Shown piece after piece: positions 28,546-62,793 of a DNA stretch of 64,000 nt. The translations under genes were made by a program, and so were the position numbers. Below the pieces are notes generated by a model. The model ran no database searches. It was given only the letters and a program-made list of their open reading frames with translations, and was not told where the DNA came from. This DNA is from Mya arenaria (Eukaryota > Mollusca > Bivalvia > Myida > Myidae): the NCBI RefSeq assembly GCF_026914265.1, contig NC_069130.1, forward strand, positions 8,593,682 to 8,657,681, read 5' to 3'. The stretch's first letter is position 1, and each line of letters begins with the position of its first letter.

Positions 28546-28602
28546 TTGGAATATTAGATAATAGCGCTCTACTTCTTCCAATGATATAACGTTTGGTTAC
28601 AG

Positions 28603-29960
28603 GGAGGAGAAGGGTACGAATTAGCAATTATGAGGAGTTGTCTGTACGTGTTTGTGAGATGTTGGACCATATGGGCTACAGTCAGTCCATGGTCCACGAC
28701 AGGCGGGCGGCATGGAGAGAGCAAGATGCGATCATGAGCGGTAAAAGACAGGCAACAACCGAAATAACTGCAGGCAGTAAGGGTGAGGGATTTACAGCAC
28801 CATTTGAGAGTGACACTGATTGTGTTCTCCTTAACAATAACACAGTGTGCAGATTACCAGATGATGACACCCTGCAATTGCCCGACACCCACTATGAGTT
28901 TATTATGGACTGTGAACACTGCCACCCAGGACATTTCAGACTGGAATTGAAACACATCGGGACTTTGGAGAATTCCAACATTGAAGAGGCTTTGTTTGTC
29001 AATGACAATGGCAGAACATTTATTTCAAGCGCAAAATACAAGACATCATTTATTGATAAAACAAATGAAACAGTTTCTGGACCAGCCCTGACAGGGTGTA
29101 CGGAATATCTTAGCTGGGACCATGTTTATGCATTCCCCTGTACCAGTCAACAACAGTTGCTCTCGGAGTGGATTAACAGACCCAGACACCACAACTGGCC
29201 ATCATCGGACCTAATAGCAGAAGTATCTAAACTTCAGGCCCAAATGGTCCCTGTAGGCTGTAAAAGTAGTGAACATAGAGACATTGAGTGGAGGGTCTGT
29301 TTTATATTCAGTGAGCAAAAACTAACTGACAGCTGGAATGGGAAACAATACTAAATATACATTCTGCTCAAGTTTATTACGAAATCCCAGCTGAAACCAA
29401 TAAACGATGTAATATCATCGTATCTATTGAAAAATATAATGCTGTGGTTCACAGAACAGAATCCAACACAAATATTTAAGAAACAACATATATTTCAAAA
29501 TGTGATCTCATGTCTTAAGAATCTCAAGGACGCCATTCAAGCCAATTATCTTCCTTATTACATGCTCCCCAGTAGAAACCTGCTGACAGGCAGAATGATC
29601 CCTGATCAGCAGCAACAGGTGATTGCAAAGCTTGACGAGCTGATACAGGAAGGTCCTCTTGTGATAATGAGATGTCCGAAAGTGCTGACAGCCCTGAATA
29701 TGTCTCCAACTGCTCTGGCTAGGAAGGGCCGCTGGAGGAACAAGCTGGAGAAGCTATACCTGCAGAGGGAAAACATATGGCCGACATACTGGTGGCCTGG
29801 CATGGGGGCAGAGAGGCTGCATCAACTGATATGGAGTGATCCTCTCTACGCCAGTATGAGAGACAAACTGCGTGAAATGGTCTGGCCCGAGTGGAGGCAA
29901 AACCAGAGAGATGATTTAGGGCAGGAATTGAAAAGGAAAGTTGCGGAAGCCCTATCGTAG
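28603..29960 (+). pseudogene. Mab-21 / cGAS-like receptor gene with one in-frame stop
   Basis: One long reading frame runs from a splice acceptor (GGTTACAG ending at 28602) to TAG at 29958-29960, interrupted only by TAA at 29352-29354. Frame and family similarity continue on both sides of the stop, so a single lesion splits the gene. Counting from 28593, GSKGEG lies at residues 61-66 and D74-x-D76 follows, the nucleotidyltransferase core arrangement of Mab-21/cGAS-like proteins. PVGCKSSEHRDIEWRV is the conserved mid-domain block. The part after the stop encodes the helical C-lobe (LWFTEQNPTQIF, LPYYMLPSRNLL). No in-frame ATG lies before CEMLDHM, so a short 5' exon is missing or lost. In bivalves this family is expanded, and some members make cyclic-dinucleotide signals in innate immunity (family knowledge). 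It could be a pseudogene, a polymorphic null or a sequencing error. Confidence 0.85.
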
Positions 29961-30539: not shown

Positions 30540-33309
30540 GGTACGTGAGTCTGACCCAATACGTTATGAAGAGCCCGAATGACACGAGTCTGACGCAATA
30601 CGCTATGAAGAGCCCGAATGACACGAGTCTGACCCAATACATTATGAAGAGCCCGAATGACACGAGTCTGACCCAATACGTTATGAAGAGCCCGAATGAC
30701 ACGAGTCTGACGCAATACGTTATTAAGGGCCTAAATGACATGAGTCTGACGCAATACGTTATGAAGAGCCCGAATGACACGAGTCTGACCCAATACGTTA
30801 TGAAGAGCCCGAATGACACGAGTCTGACGCAATACGTTATTAAGGGCCTAAATGACACGAGTCTGACGCAATACGTTATGAAGAGCCCGAATGACACGAG
30901 TCGGACCCAATACGTTATGAAGAGCCCGAATAACACGAGTCTGACGCAATACGTTATTAAGGGGCTAAATGACATGAGTCTGACGCAATACGTTATGAAG
31001 AGCCCGAATGACACGAGTCTGACGCAATACGTTATGAAGAGCCCGAATGACACGAGTCTGACCCAATACGTTATGAAGAGCCCGAATGACACGAGTCTGA
31101 CCCAATACGTTATGAAGAGCCCGAATGACACGAGTCTGACCCAATACGTTATGAAGAGCCCGAATGACACGAGTCTGACGCAATACGTTATGAAGAGCCC
31201 GAATGACACGAGTCTGACCCAATACGTTATGAAGAGCCCGAATGACACGAGTCTGACCCAATACGTTATGAAGAACCCGAATGACACGAGTCTGACGCTA
31301 TACGTTATGAAGAGCCCGAATGACACGAGTCTGACCCAATACGTTATGAAGAGCCCGAATGACACGAGTCTGACGCAATACGTTATGAAGAGCCCGAATA
31401 ACACGAGTCTGACGCAATACGTTATGAAGAGCCCGAATGACACGAGTCTGACGCAATACGTTATGAAGAGCCCGAATGACACAATACGTTATGAAGAGCC
31501 CGAATGACACGAGTCTGACGCAATACGTTATGAAGAGCCCGAATGACACGAGTCTGACGCAATACGTTATGAAGAGCCCGAATGACACGAGTCTGACGCA
31601 ATACGTTATGAAGAGCCCGGATGACACGAGTCTGACGCAATACGTTATGAAGGGCCCGAATGACACGAGTCTGACGCAATACGTTATGAAGGGCCCGAAT
31701 GACACGAGTCTGACGCAATACGTTATGAAGGGCCCGAATGACACGAGTCTGACCCAATACGTTATGAAGGGCCCGAATGACACGAGTCTGACGCAATACG
31801 TTATGAAGAGCCCGAATGACACGAGTCGGACCCAATACGTTATGAAGGGCCCGAATGACACGAGTCTGACCCAATACGTTATTAAGGGCCCGAATGACAC
31901 GAGTCTGACGCAATACGTTATGAAGAGCCCGAATGACACGAGTCTGACGCAATACGTTATGAAGAGCCCGAATGACACGAGTCTGACGCAATACGTTATG
32001 AAGAACCCGAATGACACGAGTCTGACACAATACGTTATAAGGGGCCGTAATGACACGAGTCTGACACAATACGTTATTAGGGGTCGTAATGACATGAGTC
32101 TGACTCAATGCGTTATTAATCGCCCAAATGACATGAGTCTGACTCAATACGTTATTAAGGGCCCGAATGACATGAGGCTGACGCAATACGTTATTAAGGG
32201 TCCGAATGACACAAATCTAACACAATACGTTATTAGGGGTCGTAATGACATGAGTCTGACTCAATTTGTTACTAAGGGCCCGAATGACATGAGTCTGACG
32301 CAATACGTTATTAAGGGCCGTAATGACATGAGTCCGAAGAAATACGTTATTAAGGGCCCGAATGACACGAGTCCGGCGCAATATGTTATTAAGGGCCCGA
32401 ATGACACAAGTCTGACGCAAAACGTTATTAAGGACCCGAATGAACTGAATCTGACGCAATACGTTATTAAGGGCCCGAATGACATTAGTCTGACGTTATA
32501 CGTTATTAATGGCTGTAATGACATGAATCTGACGCAATACGTTATTAGGGGCCCGAATGACACAAGTCTGACGCAAAACGTTATTAAGGGCCCGAATGTA
32601 CTGAATCTGACGCAATACGTTATTAAGGGCCCGAATGACATTAGTCTGAGGTTATACGTTATTAATGGCTGTAATGACACGAGTCTGACGCAATACGTTA
32701 TTAAGGTCCCAAATGAAATGAGTCTGACGCAATACGTTATTAAGGGGCCGAACGAAATGAGTCTGACGCTATACGTTATTAAGGGGCCGAATGAAATGAG
32801 TCTGACGCTATACGTTATTAATGGCTGTAATGACACGAGTCTGACGCAATACGTTATTAAGATCCCAAATGAAATGAGTCTGACGCAATACGTTATTAAG
32901 CCCGAATGAAATGAATTTGACGCTATACATTATTAAGGGGCCGAATGAAATGAGTCTGACTCAATACGTTATTAAGGGCCCGAATGAAATGAGTCTGACT
33001 CAATACGTTATTAAGGGGCCGAATGACATGAGTCTGACGCTATACGTTATTAAGGGCCCGAATGACATGAGTCTGACTCAATACGTTATTAAGGGGCCGA
33101 ATGACATGAATCTGACACTATACGTTATTAAGGGGCCGAATGACATGAGTCTGACGCTATACGTTATTAAGGGCCCGAATGACATGAGTCTGACTCAATA
33201 CGTTATTAAGGGCCCGAATAAAATGAATTTGACGCTATACGTTATTAAGGGACCGAATGAAATGAGTCTGACGCTATACGTTATTAAGGGGCCGAATGAC
33301 ATGACCTGA
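30540..33309. repeat. 39-bp satellite array (about 70 units)
   Basis: Head-to-tail units such as GACGCAATACGTTATGAAGA followed by GCCCGAATGACACGAGTCT. Sub-types change along the array: GTTATGAAGAGCCC dominates up to about 31900, then GTTATTAAGGGCCC with ACATGAG or AAATGAG. The unit is 13 codons without stops, so long frames (up to 477 codons) appear on both strands in several phases. There is no signal peptide, splice support or codon bias favouring one frame. I judge it non-coding. Confidence 0.92.
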
Positions 33310-33690
33310 GCCTTATGCAATACTTTGTTTAACATAAAATGTTACGACAAAAGTCTGACTTGATACGTTATTAGACTTATTACGGGTCCACATGCCCTGA
33401 GCCCGTCTGAATACGATATTAAACACGGCTCCTTTTATTACCTAGGTCTGACCCAATGCATTATTACGGACCCTTCTTACCGGAGACTGACTAAATACCT
33501 GAGTCTAACCAAATTACGGGTTCACATGAAAAGAATCTGGCTCAAAACGTTATTACGGGCCTATATGACCTGAACCTAACCAAATACGTTATTACGGACC
33601 AACATGAAAAAAATCTAACCAAATACGTTATCACGGACTCATATAACCTGAGTCTGACCCAATACGTTATCACGGACCCATATGACCGGA
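33310..33690. repeat. Diverged transition zone of the satellite
   Basis: Irregular, mutated units (TACGTTATTACGG with CCTGAGTCTGACC) link the 39-bp and 32-bp parts. Unit boundaries can still be followed, but spacing is variable. Confidence 0.7.
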
Positions 33691-35215
33691 GTCTGACTCA
33701 ATGACGGGCCTATATGACCGGAGTCTGATTCAATGACGGGCCCATATGACCGGAGTCTGATTCAATGACGGGCCTATATGACCGGAGTCTGACTCAATGA
33801 CGGGCCTATATGACCGGAGTCTGACTCAATGACGGGCCTATATGACCGGAGTCTGACTCAATGACGGGCCTATATGACCGGAGTCTGACTCAATGACGGG
33901 CCTATATGAACGGAGTCTGACTCAATGACGGGCCTATATGACCGGAGTCTGACTCAATGACGGGCCTATATGACCGGAGTCTGATTCAATGACGGGCCCA
34001 TATGACCGGAGCCTGCTCAATACGTTATTACAAACCAACATGAGCGGAGTCTGACTCTATGACGGGCCCATTTGACCGGTGTCTGACGTTATTACGGGCC
34101 CACATGACCAGAGTTTGACTCAATAACAAGCCTATATGACCGGAGTCTGACTCAATACGTTATTAAAACGCACATGACCGGAGTCAGGCTCTATGACGGG
34201 CCCATATGGCCGGAGTCTGAGTCAATGACGGGCCCATATGGCCGGAGTCTGACTCAATGACGGGCACATATGACCGGAGTCTGACTCAATAACGGGCCCA
34301 TATGACCGGAGTCTGACTCAATAACGAGTCCATATGACCGGAGTCCGACTCAATAACGGGCCCATATGACCGGAGTCTGACTCTTAAAGGGACTCATATG
34401 ACCGAAGTCTGACTCAATAACGAGTCCATATGACCGGAGTCTGACTCTTAAACGGACTCATATGACCGGAGTCTGACTCAATAACGAGTCCATATGACCG
34501 GAGTCCGACTCAATGACGGGCCCATATGACCGGAGTCTGACTCAATACGTTATTACGAACCCACATGACCGGAGTCTGATTCAATAACGGGCTCATATGA
34601 CCGGAGTATGACTCAATAACGGACTGATATGACCGGAGTCTGACTGAATAACGGGCCCATATGACCGGAGTCTGACTTAATAACGGGCTCATATGACCGG
34701 AGTCTGACTCACTAACGGACTCATATGACCGGAGTCTGACTCAATAATGGGCTCATATGACCGGAGTCTGACTCAATAACGGGCCCATATGACCGGAGTC
34801 TGACTCAATAACGGGCCCATATGACCGGAGTCTGACTCAATAACGGGCCCATATGACCGGAGTCTGACTCAATAACGGGCCCATATGACCGGAGTCTGAC
34901 TCAATAACGGGCCCATATGACCGGAGTCTGGCTCAATAACGGGCTCATGTGACCGGAGTCTGACTCAATAACGGGCCCATGTGACCGGAGTCTGACTCAA
35001 TAACGGGCTCATGTGACCGGAGTCTGACTCAATAACGGGCTCATGTGCCTTGAGTCTGATTCAATACGTTATTACGGGCCCATATAACCTGACTCTGACT
35101 CAATAATTATGTTATAACCGGCCCATATGACCGGAGTCTGACTCAATACATGTTACGGACCCCTATAACCGGAGCCTGACTCAGTACGTTATTACGGAAT
35201 CTATAACCGGAGGCG
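33691..35215. repeat. 32-bp satellite array (about 45 units)
   Basis: The unit is GTCTGACTCAATAACGGGCC then CATATGACCGGA. It equals the 39-bp unit minus 7 bases (about ACGTTAT). A few full 39-bp units with CAATACGTTATTACG persist inside (near 34018, 34153 and 34545). The array ends shortly before the cysteine-rich gene. Confidence 0.9.
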
Positions 35216-35496: not shown

Positions 35497-38400
35497 ATGA
35501 AAATCACCGTACTGCTTTTGGTAGTGTTCATCGGTAAGTTCTTAACATTTATATGTTATTTTACGTCTTAAATATATATATATATTCTGAGTATTTGTGA
35601 TGTAATTTAAAATGATTTAAGATATACTGCTTAGATAACTTCAAAATTCTGAAATATGTTAAAGATAAGAATCATGTACAAGTCTACACTACTGATTTAA
35701 TGCCTACCTGGCCCTGATTTCTAGAAACTTCTTAAGCTGAACTTGAGTAGCTTAATTTGTAAATAAATATTTCTTACTTTAACTTTATTTGAAAAAAAAT
35801 GTTTATTTTTTCGTTATAATCGGATAGATAACTTTAAAAGTAAAAACACCCTTTCAAACAAAAGTAAATATTTCACAAATTATTAAATAACATATATAGT
35901 GAGCTTAACTTAATCGTGTAATAACAGACTTTTGTAATTTGGAGAAATCGGCCTCAGTAGTCTTAAAAGTTTTGTTTTATTTAAAGAGTATGGTTGAAAT
36001 AGTTGGTATTATCACCACATATTCATGAAATTGTAATTATTAAGATTTTAGCGTGACATTTGCAATATAAACAGTTCGATATGATTGGTAAACACGTCCA
36101 AGGTCGACACGTGAAACTGTTCATTGTGATCGGCTTGACATACACCGTATATCCATGTGCGATCCGTTCATGAACAGAGCAGTTGGTATCCGACGGTGCT
36201 TGACATTCAATTTTCAAAATGTTTAATTCAAAATATGCTTTGCAGCAGATACATATTGATATCGTTGGCTCGAACTCCTAGGGACCGGCAAAATACATCG
36301 AGCCTCGGAAAATTCGAGCCAAGCGGGAATTCTTACATTCAGTTTAAAGAGATGGGTTCTTAACATCCTGTTCGAGCCAACGAGGTTTTCGAGCTAAGCG
36401 AGTTCGAGCCAACGGGGTTCGAATGTATTTATTTAGATATAAAAATAGTACGGCTGGAATTAAATAAATATTCAAGAAAACTTTTCATTTTTGACATTTG
36501 GCAGCTTAGTAAAAACTAATTTATACTACGCACAACGGGGATTTGTAACAACATACAATCGCAATATCCTGCTCCGTTACATCTCTTGACTTTCACACCA
36601 TTCGGAGCTTCTCGGCCATTTTCCATCGAAAACAACCTCGGATGTACCATCAGTAGAAATAGTTCGTAAAATTTTAAATAGTAGTATTAATTAAAAGAAG
36701 TGTTTAACGTTATTTTGTATTACTTAGTTTAAATTGTTTGCCAGTAAAGTGTATTATTGCATAAATAATTAAGATTCCCAAGAGTAAAGTCATACAATTT
36801 AACTGCTAAGTTGAAATAACTACGTGATCTACTTGCATCGTAGTTAATCTGTAAAGATTTCTAACATTGTAAACCGTCCATATACATCCGAGGTTGTTTT
36901 CAATGAAAAATGGCCGAGGAATTCCGAAAATAAACTTGTAATTATAGTCACGTGGCCTGACCATGTTGCCCGCGTGTTTACGTTTTCAGCCAGTGAAATA
37001 CTTACATTTGCGATCTTACACATAATCAACCACCTTCACGCTATACAATTATTTGTGCAGTGCAATCTGACACCGTGTCAAACAAATAATGCTATACTAG
37101 TTGTGATGCCAATAATCCTGTTAAGGCCTTTGTATGTATTGAAATTTTGGCTGGCTATACACGAAGATTTTATTAGCAAAAAAGGAGTACGGAAAGCTGT
37201 GTACTTTTCAGGGGCGTGTGTTGCCGAATATTGTTTAAACCCTGGCCAATGTACCCAGGAACAATGTCAGACTGGAGAGTCACCTGGCTGTACGTCCAAC
37301 ATCTGTACGTGCGTGACGACTATTGACGACTCAAGTGAGTAACATCTGTACATGCGTAACGACCGTTGCCTCTCCACGTGAGTAACATCTGTACATGCGT
37401 AACGACCGTAAAGACCGTTGCCTCTCCACGTGAGTAACATCTGTACATGTGTAACGACCGTTGCCTCTCCACGTGAGTAACATCTGTACATGCGTAACGA
37501 CCGTTGCCTCTCCACGTGAGTAACATCTGTACATGCCTAACGACTGTTGCCCCTCCACGTGAGTAATATCTGTACATGCGTAACGACCGTTACCTCTCCA
37601 GGTAAGTAACATCTGCACATGCATAACGACCGATACCGGGTTACCTTTCCATGTGAGTAACATCTGTACATGCGTAACGACCGTTACCTCTCCACGTGAG
37701 TAACATCTGAACATGCGTAACGACCGTTGCCTCTCCACGTGAGTAATATCTGTACATGCGTAACGACCGTTGCCTCTCCAGGTGAGTAACATCTGTACAT
37801 GCGTAACGACCGTTGCCTCTCCACGTGAGTTACATCTGTACATGCGTAACGACCGTTGCCTCTCCACGTGAGTAGCATCTGTTCATGCGTAAGGACCGTT
37901 GCCTCTCCACGTGAGTAACGTCTGTATATGCGTAAGGACCGCTGCCTCTCCACGTGAGTAACATCTGTACATGCGTAACGACCGTTGCCTCTCCACGTGA
38001 GTAACATCTGTACATGCGTTACGACCGTTGCCTCTCCACGTGAGTAACATCTGTACATGCGTAACGACAGTTGCCTCTCCACGTGAGTAACATCTGTACA
38101 TGCGTAAGGACCGTTGCCTCTCCAGGTGAGTAACATCTGTACATACGTAACGACCGTTACCTCTCCACGTGAGTAACATCTGCACATGCGTAACGACCGA
38201 TACCGGGTTACCTCTCCAGGTGAGTAACATCTGTACATGCGTAACGACCGTTACCTCTCCAGGTGAGTTACATCTGCACATGCGTAACGACCGATACCGG
38301 GTTACCTCTCCAGGTGAGTAACATCTGTACATGCGTAACGACCGTTGCCTCTCCACGTGAGTAATATCTGTACATGCGTAACGACCGTTGCCTCTCCAGG

Positions 38401-40151
38401 TGAGTAACATCTGTACATGCGTAACGACCGTTGCCTCTCCACGTGAGTTACATCTGTACATGCGTAACGACCGTTACCTCTCCACGTGAGTAGCATCTGT
38501 TCATGCGTAAGGACCGTTGCCTCTCCACGTGAGTAACGTCTGTATATGCGTAACGACCGTTGCCTCTCCACGTGAGTAACATCTGTACATGCGTAACGAC
38601 CGTTGCCTCTCCACGTGAGTAACATCTGTACATGCGTTACGACCGTTGCCTCTCCACGTGAGTAACATCTGTACATGCGTAACGACAGTTGCCTCTCCAG
38701 GTGAGTAACATCTGTACATGCGTAAGGACCGTTGCCTCTCCAGGTGAGTAACATCTGTACATACGTAACGACCGTTACCGGGTTACCTCTCCATGTGAGT
38801 AACATCTGTACATGCGTAACGACCGATACCTCTCCACGTAAGTAACATCTGTGCATGCGTAACGACCGTTGCCTCTCCACGTGAGTAACATCTGTACATG
38901 CGTTACGACCGTTGCCTCTCCACGTGAGTAACATCTGTACATGCGTAAGGACCGTTGCCTCTCCACGTGAGTAACATCTGCACATGCGTAACGACCGATA
39001 CCGGGTTACCTCTCCAGGTGAGTAACATCTGTACATGCGTAACGACCGTTACCTCTCCAGGTGAGTTACATCTGCACATGCGTAACGACCGATACCGGGT
39101 TACCTCTCCAGGTGAGTAACATCTGTACATGCGTACCGACCGTTACCTCTCCACGTGAGTAACATCTGCACATGCGTAACGACCGATACTGGGTTACCTC
39201 TCCAGGTGAATAACATCTGTACATGCGTAACGACCATTACCTCTCCAGGTAAGTAACATCTGCACATGCGTAACGACCGTTACCTCTCCAGGTGAGTAAC
39301 ATCTGTACATGCGTAACGACCGTTACCTCTCCACGTAAGTAACATCTGTGCATGCGTAACGACCGTTACCTCTCCACGTGAGTAACATCTGTACACGCGT
39401 AACGACCGTTGCCTCTCCACGTGAGTAACATCTGTACATGCGTAACGACCGTTACCTCTCCAGGTGAGTACCATCTGTACATGCGTAACGACCGTTACCT
39501 CTCCAGGTGAGTAACATATGTACATGCGTAACGACCATTGCCTCTAAACGTGAGTAACATCAGTACATGCGTAACGACCGTTGCCTCTCCACGTGAGTAA
39601 CATCTGTACATGCGTAAGGACCGTTGCCTCTCCACGTGAGTAACATCTGTACATGCGTAAGGACCGTTGCCTCTCCACGTGAGTAACATCTGTACATGCG
39701 TAAGGACTGTTGCCTCCTCATGTGAGTGAAGTTTATTTAGCTTGTTGATTAGTTACCATATGAGGCATCTTATATCTTTTTTTTTGAGAAAACAATGGGG
39801 CCTGCAGCCCTCCTAATCCGCTCAGCCAATTTAACGTAAGGATAATAATTTTAGTAATTATATCACATTGGCTACGGTTGTTCGGCTATTCACGGATATG
39901 AATCCTACATATTATGTTTAAAGATATGTGTTTGAAGAATGCTAGTATATGATAATTAAACAAGTAGCTGTGTTACATACACTTGTATACATTTTAAACA
40001 TTATTGCAACTATTATAACAGCATACATTTGTATTTAGCCTGCGGAAGCAAGGATGACTGCAATGCGTACTACGACAGCGGAAAACACGGTTCTTGCTAC
40101 CATAGCTGGCGTCACTGCGTAGATGCTAAGTGCCAATGTCATCGTTATTGA
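35497..40151 (+). CDS. Small secreted cysteine-rich protein, two repeats of a Cys motif
   Basis: Three exons with matching phases: 35497-35533, 37212-37334 and 40039-40151 (TGA at 40149), giving 90 residues. Exon 1 encodes a hydrophobic signal peptide (MKITVLLLVVFIG). The mature part has two related modules. The first has spacing C-x4-C-x5-C-x4-C-x7-C-x4-C-x-C, ending NICTCV. The second is C-x5-C-x10-C-x6-C-x4-C-x-C, ending KCQCHRY. The shared C-x4-C-x-C ending and two-module layout resemble small bivalve serine-protease inhibitors of the Cvsi type (MEROPS I84); this is from memory and tentative. It could also be another secreted defence or matrix peptide. AATAAA lies at 40197. Intron 2 is mostly a tandem array made from the exon-2 donor region. 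Confidence 0.78.
36259..36425. mobile_element. MITE, GTTGGCTCGAAC family, in intron 1
   Basis: Inverted ends GTTGGCTCGAACTCC and GAGTTCGAGCCAACGGGGTT, with internal GAGCCTCGG and TTCGAGCCAAGCGG. The same family as 45641-45804, which is better preserved. Confidence 0.75.
36599..36930. mobile_element. Long-TIR MITE (Mutator-like), copy 1, in intron 1
   Basis: About 45-bp inverted ends: TTCGGAGCTTCTCGGCC to AACAACCTCGGATGTA at the left, TACATCCGAGGTTGTT to GGCCGAGGAATTCCGAA at the right. It matches 42649-42984 along its length. No target duplication seen at this copy. Confidence 0.8.
37292..39725 (+). repeat. 43-bp minisatellite derived from the exon-2 / splice-donor junction
   Basis: About 55 head-to-tail units fill intron 2 of the cysteine-rich gene. 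A typical unit begins AACATCTGTACATGCGTAAC and ends CTCTCCACGTGAGT. The true exon end plus donor, 37292-37334 continuing into GTGAGT, aligns to the unit over all 43 positions with about 10 differences; the array starts directly after it with no spacer. The unit still reads NICTCVTTV like the exon. Many units carry CAGGTGAGT (consensus donor), others CACGTGAGT. A longer variant has an extra ATACCGGGTT block. Minus-strand open frames (up to 244 codons) are by-products. Confidence 0.92.
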
Positions 40152-40905
40152 TCCTGTCTGCCCAAACTTCACAGAACTGATCTACTTTCATTGTAAAATA
40201 AATTCTTACTTGTAGTGTCCAAATATACAATGAATTATTTTTGTGTTGAGTTCTTGTCTTGTAAACAATATAGTTTGTTCAATGGAGGAAGCTTTGAATC
40301 GTACAATCAAAATACAATTAATGAAGCTGTTTCTTTATTCTTGACATTTTAGAATTGATTGCCTTTTTCTTGCGTTTATGCTGTATGAACGCAGTAGGGC
40401 ACGTAGGCAATTTAGATGAAGCGTTGAACATTTGGGATTCAATAATTTTCATCAGATTATTGCTTAATAAAAATGACTTGATATTTACTCTCATACGTAT
40501 ATAACATACCACTGTACCTTATAGGGAACAATCACGGTAACAACAACCAACTACATTCTATCTACGTTGCATGCAAACTTCCATTTGAAGAATCGAACCA
40601 GATCGAATGAATTTTGGAAAAATGTAGTACCTTTGCACTTCCTGCTTGACCATAAGTGCCTTGACGACGTTGATTGCGTTGATGTTTCTCACACAGTATA
40701 TCTTTACAATTATTCTAGTTTGATCTATAACCTTAAGCTCAATACATCACATTAAATACAGCGAGTCAACATTAAAGTGACTCGCTCATGTTTTTGGACC
40801 AAAAATAAGTTTTCCCGGTAATATATATGAAAACACTCATTTTAATCTATGATATCGAAATTGTAGAAAAAAATACAGTTATAGTCTTAAAAAGAATTTT
40901 GGTTT

Positions 40906-47345: not shown

Positions 47346-49589
47346 ATGGAGAATATCGTAAAAATGAATGTTTTGTCTGTTCTGTTTGCTGTATTGATTG
47401 GAGTGACTAGCGGTGGTAAGTACATTGAATTATACTTCTAACTATGATGAAATGAATCTTAATTTTACAACGTTGATAAACATATTTAAACCAGCAATTA
47501 ATAAATAGAAGTACATGCATTAATATATATATCAAACATTTCGCATATACACGAATTAGGAACATGTTGACATTTTAAGAATAAAAAAGTTGTTCTTTTT
47601 ATTTTAATAACAAGTTCACATGATAATGAGACGTTCCTGCGCACTGATATCTTAAACTTTTATCCGAATCAAAAATATAATTTTTATAAACATATTCCTA
47701 GCATCCCGTACTAGAAAAATATAAACGCTTGCGTACCAAAAACAACGATTTTTAAAGTTTCTGTGAAAACTTTCACTTTTGAACCAATTACTTTTCCCGA
47801 GACAAAAATACTATCACTGAAATTTTGGCTGAAAGCCTCATCCACAGATTTAACCGTCAGATTACTTAATTAATTTAAGATCATTGAAACCATATTTTTC
47901 AAATGGAATTTGTACAACACTCAAAAACTGCAATTTATAATAAATCTTATTTTACACATTAGCCCAGAAGTTGAAGTGTTATGAGTGCAGCAGCCTGACA
48001 GAACCCGGATGTGGGGAAACGCTTACCCTGACTCAAAGCGAGTCTGACCAGTATCTGCGCATGTGCGAGGGAGACCAGGTGGCTTGTACGAAGATTGTCA
48101 ATAAAGACAATAATAAACGTAATATGTGTAACATTATTTATATTCTGACAAGTTTTCTTAAAGCTGCACTCTCACATAGAGCGTTTTGACAACTATTTAA
48201 GTTCAAAATAATAGATGTTTTATGCATTTTCTTAAACCTTTAGTAATGGGTTAAGCCATAAAACATTAATTTTCGGACGGAAATAGGAAATTCTACGATC
48301 TGAATTTTTGTCACCAATCTTATATCATTGGTTTGCAGATATTTACGCAAAAATGCTCTTTCGAAGACAAAATATAAAAAAGTTGTAAAAATGGTATATC
48401 TGTGAGAGTGCAGTGTTTCTTTGAAATATAAATCGTCACGCATATCACGAACTACTGATCAACTTCGCGTGATGGCGTTTTACCATTCTATCTTTATTTA
48501 TTATTTTGTCCTTTCACTTACAGAATGATTTAAAAATGAGATAAAATAAAATAAATTTATTTAAGTGAATGGCTGAAATCCAACTATTGTTTTCATGTAG
48601 CTCTGTTCAGTAAGTGGGAGATTAGATCGCTAAAAAACAGAAAACACAACACAATCATGAATAACACAAGACCACTCTCTCGCTTAATATCGTGTCAAGG
48701 AGATTAATTAATATAGTGTTATCTTGTTTCACAATCGTTGTATGAAAAATAAGTTTGAATGTAACTAACCATGTCACACGGGTGTTACAATGCATTTAGC
48801 CACATGAGAACACTTTGTGTTGCTCTTTTTACTAACGTTAGGACGTGTACACTTGGAATTCACCTGGAATTATTTTGGATAGCCTCCGATGCTCATGGCA
48901 AACTTTTTTTAATGTTCGCCTGTCGGAAAAAAGGAAACACAACACAAACTGTATGACACAACTGTAGTAAGAATGTATTTTGTAGGGTTAGAAACGGGGA
49001 AACATTTTACAATATGAGGTCCCTGAGCCTATAGCTAAATGGTTATATTTACATATTCACTCGCCTTTTGCGCGTCCTTAGATGAACGCATATTCTTTCT
49101 ATAGAATTCATATTCCGATGAACGAAAACTCTTCGGAAACCTCGATTAAACGTCGATGAAACCAGTGACGTCATTTGCAATCCCACTGTTTAAAAAGCGC
49201 GATTCATATTGTGTTAAAAACACTGGAAGCGTTTAATTTCGATTAGCAAGCATACATTTTGAAATTAAAGAGTGTAAATATTAACATAGAAAGAATTGCA
49301 GTTCATATACCGATGAACCGGAATTCTAGAACACTTGATACTTAATAAAGTTCGGTTATACTTTTCAATTACAGAACATACACTCGTGACACGGAGTTGT
49401 TGGAATTCGAGCCTATCCGATTTACTGGACAGTGAATTCTTCACGTGCAGTGATATCATGAAATTGGGACAATCCTGCTATTGCAACACAAACCAATGTA
49501 ACGGTGCGAGTGATCTCCCATGTTCTTCCATTGTGACCTTCACTTTGGTCGGTGCCGCCATCTTGTTTGTTAAAAAGTTGCGTTTTTAG
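47346..49589 (+). CDS. Ly6/uPAR three-finger domain protein, probably GPI-anchored
   Basis: Three exons with matching phases: 47346-47415, 47963-48118 and 49375-49589 (TAG at 49587), giving 146 residues. Two in-frame ATGs (47346 and 47364) precede a hydrophobic signal peptide (VLSVLFAVLIGVTSG). The mature domain opens KCYECSS, the classical CxxC start of Ly6 domains, has a ladder of about ten cysteines, and closes CYCNTNQCNG (the C-N signature). It is followed by a hydrophobic C-terminus (IVTFTLVGAAILFV), typical of a GPI signal. The exon-2 donor (AAAC/GTAATA) is weak but required by phase. Ly6 proteins act at the cell surface in signalling, adhesion or immunity; the specific role is unknown. 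Intron 2 carries a MITE 40 bases after the donor. AATAAA lies at 49686. Confidence 0.85.
48158..48415. mobile_element. Partial palindromic MITE in Ly6 intron 2
   Basis: Starts TTAAAGCTGCACTCTCACA and ends CTGTGAGAGTGCAG. The left arm has an internal deletion. It sits 40 bases after the exon-2 donor. Confidence 0.8.
48722..48770 (+). mobile_element. 3' tail fragment of the second SINE family
   Basis: CTTGTTTCACAATCGTTGT and the following bases match the tail of the SINE at 24652-24900. The head and body are absent, as in a 5'-truncated insertion or a related LINE tail. Confidence 0.45.
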
Positions 49590-61208: not shown

Positions 61209-62793
61209 GGAAACATATCTTGGATGTTAAGCACACAATCACCTCGTTGTTTACACGGATAACAATCCATTGACATATGTTTCATCAACAGCAAAACTTG
61301 ATGCTTCAGGTCTTAGATGGGCTTCAGCTTTTGGAGAGTTTAATTCTATTACAGACAGGGACATAAGAACATTGATGCGGATGCAATGAGCAGATATCCA
61401 TTAGAGAAGGTAAAATATGAGGAGAAAGAGCTCATTAAGATTGAGGATAACACTGAAAAGACCATTTGCAAAAGTGTTGAAATTTATCCATGTATTGAAG
61501 AAATACCAATTGCAAGTATTAACAATGTTGAGGTTACTGAAACACTTGGCACACCATTGGAACAGATAGAGTACAGGGAAATTAGGAGAAAGCAAAGAGA
61601 TGGCCAATTGATAAGACAGATGGGATAGGACTGTAATAGATAATATATAACCAGCAAGAGAACAATGTGATACAAAGGAGGATATGATTATGAGAAAGAA
61701 CTTTGGAAGTTTTAGGATGATAAGAGGAGTTTCGTATATAGTTTGGAAGAAGACTGGTGATGGTAAACAATGTTTTAATTGGTGTTACCAGAGGTTTACG
61801 GAAATTATGTATTGAAGGATCTTCATGATGAAATTGGACATCACGGACGGGATAGAAAAACATCATGACTTAGAAAGGTATTTTTGGCAAGGGATTAGTA
61901 ACGAAGTTTAAAGATGGATTCAGAAATGTAGAAGATGTATTCAGAGAAAGTCCGCGACAACGACGAAAACAGAGCTAGTGAACATAACAACGTATCCTCT
62001 AAAAATAGTATCAATGGATTATTTGTGTTTGAAATCATCAAGGGGATTTGGAAACATGTTAGTAATACCATATCATTTCTCAAAGCATGCTTTCTCTATA
62101 CCAACAAAGAATCAGACAGCAAAGAGAACAGCTTTAGCATTAAATAACAACTTTATCACCCACTATGGAATCCCGGACAAGATTTACACAGATCAAGGAA
62201 CAAATTTTGAATCAGATTTGATAAAGGTCTTATGTAAAATTATGGGAATGAAGAAAAGTAGGACTACGTCATATTACCCTATGGTAAATGGTTGGGCTGA
62301 ACGATGGAATAAGACTTTACTAAGCATGCTTGGGACATAACAACCAGAACAGAGGCCAAACTGGATTTCAATCAACCTCTAGTATATGCTTACAACTGTA
62401 CCAAACATGAAAGTACTAGATTGTCACCATTTGAATTGATGTTTGGTAGAACTCCAAAGTTGCCTATATACTCCATATTTGAAGTTTCACGAGTAGAAAC
62501 AGAAACGGCAAAGCATTCCGAATACATAAAAGATCTTAAACAGCGAATTAAAAAAGCACAATTAATAGCGCAGATATATACCAGAGAGGCTAGGGAAAGG
62601 CAGAAAAAGTATATGACAAGAAAGATAAAGCTTCAAAGGTGTCAATAGGAGATACTGTGTTGGTAAAATGTTGTCGCATGACATGGGGAAGGTAAACATA
62701 AGTTGACTGATAAGTATGAATCAAAAGTTTACACTGTAATTGAAAAGAAGCGACCAGAAATACCAGTGTTTAGGGTTAAACTTCAGCACTTGG
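61209..62793 (+). mobile_element. Ty3/gypsy-type retrotransposon pol remnant (RNase H end to integrase)
   Basis: In order: TDNNPLTYV and LDASGLRWASAFGEFN (RNase H connection), DADAMSRYP, an H2C2-like zinc region around 61810-61950, the integrase core with SMDYLC (about 62011), YTDQGTNFES (about 62184) and NGWAERWNKTLL (about 62290), which show the D, D and E catalytic residues, and a C-terminal GKHKL/VYTVIEKK/PVFRVK stretch near 62690-62785. At least four frame changes or stops break it, so it is inactive. Protease, most of the reverse transcriptase and gag are absent, and no LTRs were identified. Confidence 0.85.

Follow-up and report, generated by a model that had tools for sequence, protein, structure and literature searches.

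Within a 64,000-nucleotide stretch of Mya arenaria DNA (NCBI RefSeq assembly GCF_026914265.1, contig NC_069130.1, positions 8,593,682 to 8,657,681 of the forward strand; hereafter the window, with positions counted from its first base), we found that intron 2 of a small cysteine-rich gene, here called gene A, opens with a minisatellite (array A) whose unit repeats, in diverged form, the final 37 bases of exon 2 together with the donor GTGAGT. As both the exon end and the splice site are part of the unit, array A is an exon-intron boundary minisatellite, and there is strong support for its origin from the host's own exon end and donor. Taking all parts together, we consider it very probable that a segment across the exon 2/intron 2 border was copied in tandem and expanded before the gene was duplicated, that gene A codes for a Family I84 inhibitor and still uses its own donor, and that the array is largely neutral.

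Tandem Repeats Finder (TRF) placed the repeat at 37298-39727 with a period of 43, 55.0 copies and 87% matches. Cutting it at the donor gives an exon copy at 37298-37340 (plus strand), the 43-bp template formed by the end of exon 2 and intronic GTGAGT, followed by 54 intronic units at 37341-39727 (plus strand), each ending in a donor-like GT site. The initial annotation of this DNA, which had counted about 55 units of 43 bp, is confirmed as to the array and needs adjusting in that 54 units are intronic and eight of these are longer (43 bp, n = 46; 51 bp, n = 7; 52 bp, n = 1). Its observations that the array follows exon 2 without a spacer and that exon end and unit align at equal length with about 10 differences both hold, and the 34 coding bases that it assigned to the unit become 37. 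The exon-end 43-mer aligns with the unit consensus ungapped and in register at 33/43 positions (10 differences), and the 46 units of 43 bp differ from one another by 3.1 bases on average. The peptide NICTCVTTV, said in the annotation to be still legible in the units, is encoded by 22 of these 46. The 51-bp units carry an 8-base insert, which is GATACCGG in five, GTTACCGG in one and GATACTGG in one. Within array A, stretches of 178, 147 and 139 bases recur unchanged at shifts of 798 and 618 bp. In all, intron 2 is 2704 bp long, with the array first and then 311 bp of other sequence (39728-40038, plus strand) that contains no 43-bp units and ends in TTTGTATTTAG. On the minus strand, an open frame of up to 248 codons runs through the array (38302-39048); it is probably meaningless and arises because the complement of the unit has no stop in any frame.

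Chance likeness between exon end and unit was excluded by comparison across the window on both strands. No other 43-mer has fewer than 20 differences to the unit consensus (best, 23/43 matches), and for the 37 exonic bases alone the exon shows 10 differences while the best match elsewhere in the window shows 16. We also searched the 1.216-Gb, 18-contig assembly, in which the window lies on contig C9, with a query of two unit lengths. At least 53 matches fell at two places, array A and C9:999638-1001913, each directly downstream of exon 2 in one of two sister genes; these counts are lower bounds, and very common words were skipped. A dispersed satellite, named in the initial annotation as the finding that would speak against a host-exon origin, is therefore ruled out, again within the limits of that word filter. 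A 19-base piece of the unit had no match in viral contigs, where 11 stretches fit the peptide patterns and none encodes a relative. Its one match among bacterial and archaeal genomes, in a Flavobacteriales record and in single copy on that strand, was taken as chance.

The edges of the arrays point to the direction of copying. The last unit of array A shares the exon A bases at sites 24, 33 and 34, and the last unit of the sister array (array B) those at sites 24, 29, 33 and 34; compared with the exon B bases, the shared sites are 33 and 34 for A and 29, 33 and 34 for B. Among 104 internal units the exon states at sites 24, 29, 33 and 34 occur in 4, 0, 0 and 1, respectively, and in simulation the last unit of A shares at least three exon bases by chance with a probability of 0.003. 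The boundary units, that is the exon copy and the last units, thus depart from the consensus and have in common bases that are rare among internal units. The last units keep exon-specific bases nearly absent from the interior, the pattern that seeding by the exon border would leave; the initial annotation had proposed such an origin. Eight of the 10 exon-unit differences lie at sites 24-37, in the linker after the CTC motif (Fisher p 0.0007), which we read as a sign that the free linker of the exon may have drifted, with CTC and the donor staying as they were.

The sister gene (gene B) lies 7.6 Mb from gene A on the same contig and has the same three exons, with an identical exon 1, an identical exon 2 peptide and two changes in exon 3. 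Array B stands directly after its exon 2 and comprises 52 intronic units, and the end of exon B differs from the unit consensus at 8/43 positions. We distinguished 37 unit types in A and 33 in B, nine of them common to both, and on account of these shared types the array must predate the gene duplication. The order of units differs between the arrays, array B has many AAC/AAT pairs, and the unit numbers (54 against 52) differ as placed in one assembly and not as alleles; each array has rearranged since the duplication. The duplicated stretch covers window positions 17217-49996 or more (at least 33 kb), corresponding to C9:974500-1012000, with main aligned blocks 83-97% identical outside masked arrays. 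The match reaches the first base fetched, so the duplication may extend beyond 17217-49996.

A further relative, gene C on contig C10, has an exon 2 that is 38% identical to that of gene A, keeps the CTC ending and is followed by an I84-type exon 3; its exon 1 was not seen, the preceding stretch reading N. At the matching place gene C has a 1486-bp intron in which we found no 43-bp unit. Because gene C combines the CTC end with an intron free of the unit, the array did not give rise to the exon 2 end. Intron gain by tandem duplication, known for AGGT segments (PMC3443670, in its available sections), is rejected on the same comparison: an old intron was enlarged here. An unrelated array of 17 bp x 70 copies begins about 130 bases past the donor in intron 2 of gene C (L023:313-1520, contig C10), and thus both kinds of I84-like gene found carry a large intron 2 minisatellite. 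Weak protein matches in the assembly (on C17 and C15, at C10:49.94 Mb and on C6) were, by eye, without the I84-like cysteine pattern.

Gene A itself has three exons and a predicted product of 90 amino acids (aa). The coding part of exon 1 (35497-35533, plus strand) consists of MKITVLLLVVFI plus one base, starts a signal peptide and ends in phase 1 at a GTAAGT donor. It was predicted by scanning for a signal peptide followed by a phase-1 donor, with a single match between 29001 and 37200. The same scan of the whole window matches two places on the plus strand (35497-35533 and 47346-47364) and seven on the minus strand, so that this filter alone is no proof of the exon, although it recurs unchanged in gene B. 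Exon 2 (37212-37334, plus strand) is in phase 1 at both ends, completes the signal peptide and supplies the first six cysteines before ending in CTC-VTTIDDS; exon 3 (40039-40151, plus strand) supplies the last six and the stop codon. An AATAAA motif at 40197-40202 (plus strand) is the likely polyadenylation signal, judged by motif only. If the signal peptide is 17 aa long, as judged by eye, the predicted mature peptide has 73 aa, 12 cysteines, a mass of 8098 Da and an isoelectric point (pI) of 5.3.

This layout resembles the molluscan protease inhibitors of Family I84 (cvSI), for which the available sections of PMC9198434 describe three exons, two phase-1 introns (taking its 'type 1' as phase 1), six cysteines per exon and a CTC ending exon 2. 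Gene A matches in exon number, in the number and phase of its introns, in the six cysteines that exons 2 and 3 each supply and in the CTC end, and its predicted peptide falls within the reported ranges for mature family members (69-89 aa, 7.1-9.3 kDa, pI 4.98-6.11). The linker after CTC is likewise described there as varying in length within the family. One cysteine spacer in the third module, encoded by exon 3, departs from the pattern, with 11 residues against 3-6 in razor clam, whereas the other ten spacers fit; gene C has six residues at the matching place. No array of this kind is mentioned in those sections of PMC9198434. The gene A product had no match in Pfam or PDB. On these features gene A is predicted to encode a secreted, cvSI-like inhibitor of Family I84, and it looks like a clam defence gene.

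All 106 intronic units of the two arrays have GT at the donor position, and 104 have GTRAGT (53/54 in A and 51/52 in B), a motif that outside the array occurs about once per 2.4 kb on the plus strand of the window. AG/GT (the slash marking the border) is present in 31/106 units (17 of the 54 in A and 14 in B) and the full CAG/GTRAGT in 30/106 (16 and 14); CAGGTRAGT was not found outside the array on the plus strand of the window. The dozens of potential U1 sites described in the initial annotation are thus present as sequence. Its claim that many units carry a better donor than the real one applies to the CAG units (in array A, CAG/GTGAGT in 14/54 and CAG/GTAAGT in 2/54), but not to the commonest form, CAC/GTGAGT (64/106 units; 31/54 in A and 33/52 in B), the -1 base being C in most units. 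Duplex energies computed with the U1 5' end sequence are -7.3 kcal/mol for the real donor CAA/GTGAGT, lie between -7.4 and -7.5 in CAC units and reach about -14 in CAG units. By U1 pairing, the CAC/GTGAGT units are no stronger than the true donor, and the 30/106 donors of the CAG/GTRAGT form are stronger. No other six-base stretch of the unit has as few variant states as the donor hexamer. In a permutation test that was chosen after the data were seen, donor conservation in array A gave p 0.057 by variant states and 0.14 by cells, and the two arrays together gave 0.056 and 0.057, respectively; since a p of about 0.06 is not significant, selection on the donors is not demonstrated.

Reading past the true donor gives ...DDSSE and then a stop at 37340-37342, two codons on, so that extension of the protein by the array is rejected, in agreement with the initial annotation. 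Coding constraint on the units can also be set aside, as non-consensus cells number 31, 18 and 15 at codon positions 1, 2 and 3 (46 units of 43 bp), the reverse of constraint. An RNA structure that hides the donors was rejected as well: the exon copy with the first three intronic units is less stable than shuffled sequences (z +1.51; 190/200 shuffles at least as stable).

In the history that we propose, tandem copying would have placed the border segment of 37 coding bases and GTGAGT at the start of the intron, and unequal exchange or slippage would then have expanded the array past 50 copies before the gene duplication. Splicing of exon 2 would still use the exon's own donor, the most upstream one, and remove the array with the intron, with at most occasional use of an array donor giving a product that stops two codons past the true exon end. 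We favour a largely neutral array because the donor p is about 0.06, there is no excess at third codon positions and comparable amphioxus genes, described below, are reported to splice normally. Neutral expansion was one option offered in the initial annotation, while the others, namely a decoy, slowed splicing and alternative exon ends, find no support where testable, given the non-significant donor p, a commonest donor no stronger than the real one and the amphioxus cases. Several points weigh against our reading. The exon junctions of gene A are predictions from sequence alone, and the outgroup data are thin, with one relative (gene C) whose exon 2 is only 38% identical. The most upstream donor would also have to win over 54 others, 16 with the full CAG/GTRAGT, and GT in 106/106 and GTRAGT in 104/106 units, the least-varying six-base stretch, lean toward selection even below significance.

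Decoy, unproductive or stepwise splicing by the array is possible, and on present evidence such functional ideas are less likely than neutral expansion. The strongest of them, which we nevertheless regard as unlikely, is a regulatory array whose donors compete with the true one, so that some transcripts overrun exon 2, stop two codons on and decay or yield a one-module inhibitor, with copy number tuning the amount of inhibitor. The near-universal GTRAGT of both arrays, the pairing strength of the CAG/GTRAGT units and the retention of more than 50 units by both duplicates would fit this, as would the position of the stop at 37340-37342, which any array donor leaves upstream of the junction (by 35 nt for unit 1 and 87 nt for unit 2, the usual decay rule being 50-55 nt). 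The non-significant donor conservation (p 0.056) tells against it, as do the predominance of C at the -1 base, which sets donor strength, and the normal splicing reported for amphioxus. We see only a small chance that the array is a copy-number-tunable splicing rheostat, with donors and two-way AG/GT sites together diverting transcripts to stop-containing, decayed or one-module products; were it so, minisatellite length would set inhibitor output and could change fast between individuals and between sister genes.

An assembly artefact, with the second locus a misplaced allele and the copy numbers unreliable, is more doubtful again. Arrays are hard to assemble, and outside the masked arrays the loci share 83-97% similarity across 33 kb or more, but 7.6 Mb of the same contig separates them and their unit order differs; even as an artefact, the array itself would still be real, with only the count and the sister gene in doubt. 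We give slightly less weight still to AG/GT units serving as two-way splice sites or stepping stones by which the intron is removed piecewise (dual-specific or recursive splicing), as the intron is only 2.7 kb long and single units would give 43-bp introns, probably too short for splicing. AG/GT does occur in 31/106 units, and in array A the 12 bases upstream of it include 8-10 pyrimidines, compared with 8 for the real acceptor and 7 for the end of the exon itself. Human UBC, whose two-way sites these units resemble in sequence, has AGGT in successive tandem units, which according to the available sections of PMC10809524 are used as both site types; the UBC units are coding, however, and in the clam AGGT is limited to the units just counted. 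Least probable of all is a pre-existing, unrelated minisatellite whose edge became the end of exon 2, for although the array abuts the exon without a spacer, the CTC end is a family feature (PMC9198434, in the sections cited above) present in gene C without the unit.

An exon-border origin of the kind favoured here has its closest parallel in the amphioxus 'mirages', tandem copies of exon-intron borders in Adh3, troponin C, the globins BflGb6 and BflGb9 and PGBD5, which the available sections of PMC3087553 and PMC3902484 report not to disturb regular splicing. Units there measure 10-72 bp in Adh3, and BflGb6 has 3-6 copies in a cluster whose boundaries escape homogenization. The clam unit also spans the border and copies the splice site, and its boundary units are unhomogenized; it differs in belonging to a mollusc and in reaching 54 and 52 copies against the 3-6 of BflGb6. 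Human internal tandem repeats at exon-intron boundaries, likewise minisatellite expansions at such a border, average about four units of 30 bp, with alternative transcripts that have support (PMC2812944, in part); the clam array has more than 50 units, all counted as intronic, and is known here solely from its DNA sequence. Partial texts further link one Caenorhabditis elegans minisatellite to alternative splicing (PMC4039745) and describe a fish intron with a 150-bp repeat at its 5' end (PMC3045353). The mollusc genes in the available sections of PMC3862624 and PMC4732748 showed no exon-border minisatellite, and a literature search found none for molluscs among the open-licence papers listed, partly seen, which is weak evidence of novelty.

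Repeats of an exon end together with its splice signal are seldom described, and the clam array is a large mollusc example, probably neutral, so that the underlying process may reach beyond the lancelet lineage. Two sister genes, each with more than 50 near-identical donors past one presumed true donor, offer a natural experiment on 5' splice site choice by the spliceosome, and arrays A and B also bear on the growth of introns out of exon borders.

Other features of the window were noted in passing. Upstream of gene A, a larger run made up of 39-bp repeats (71 copies by TRF) and 32-bp repeats (43 copies) occupies 30547-35212 and ends about 285 bp before the gene's start codon; the matching interval is about 11.2 kb at the sister locus against 4.9 kb here. 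Downstream, 47346-49589 appears by eye to encode another secreted cysteine-rich protein, Ly6-like with a hydrophobic tail. Also by eye, open frames at 61344-62648 resemble a retrotransposon integrase and those at 28590-29960 a Mab-21-like protein.

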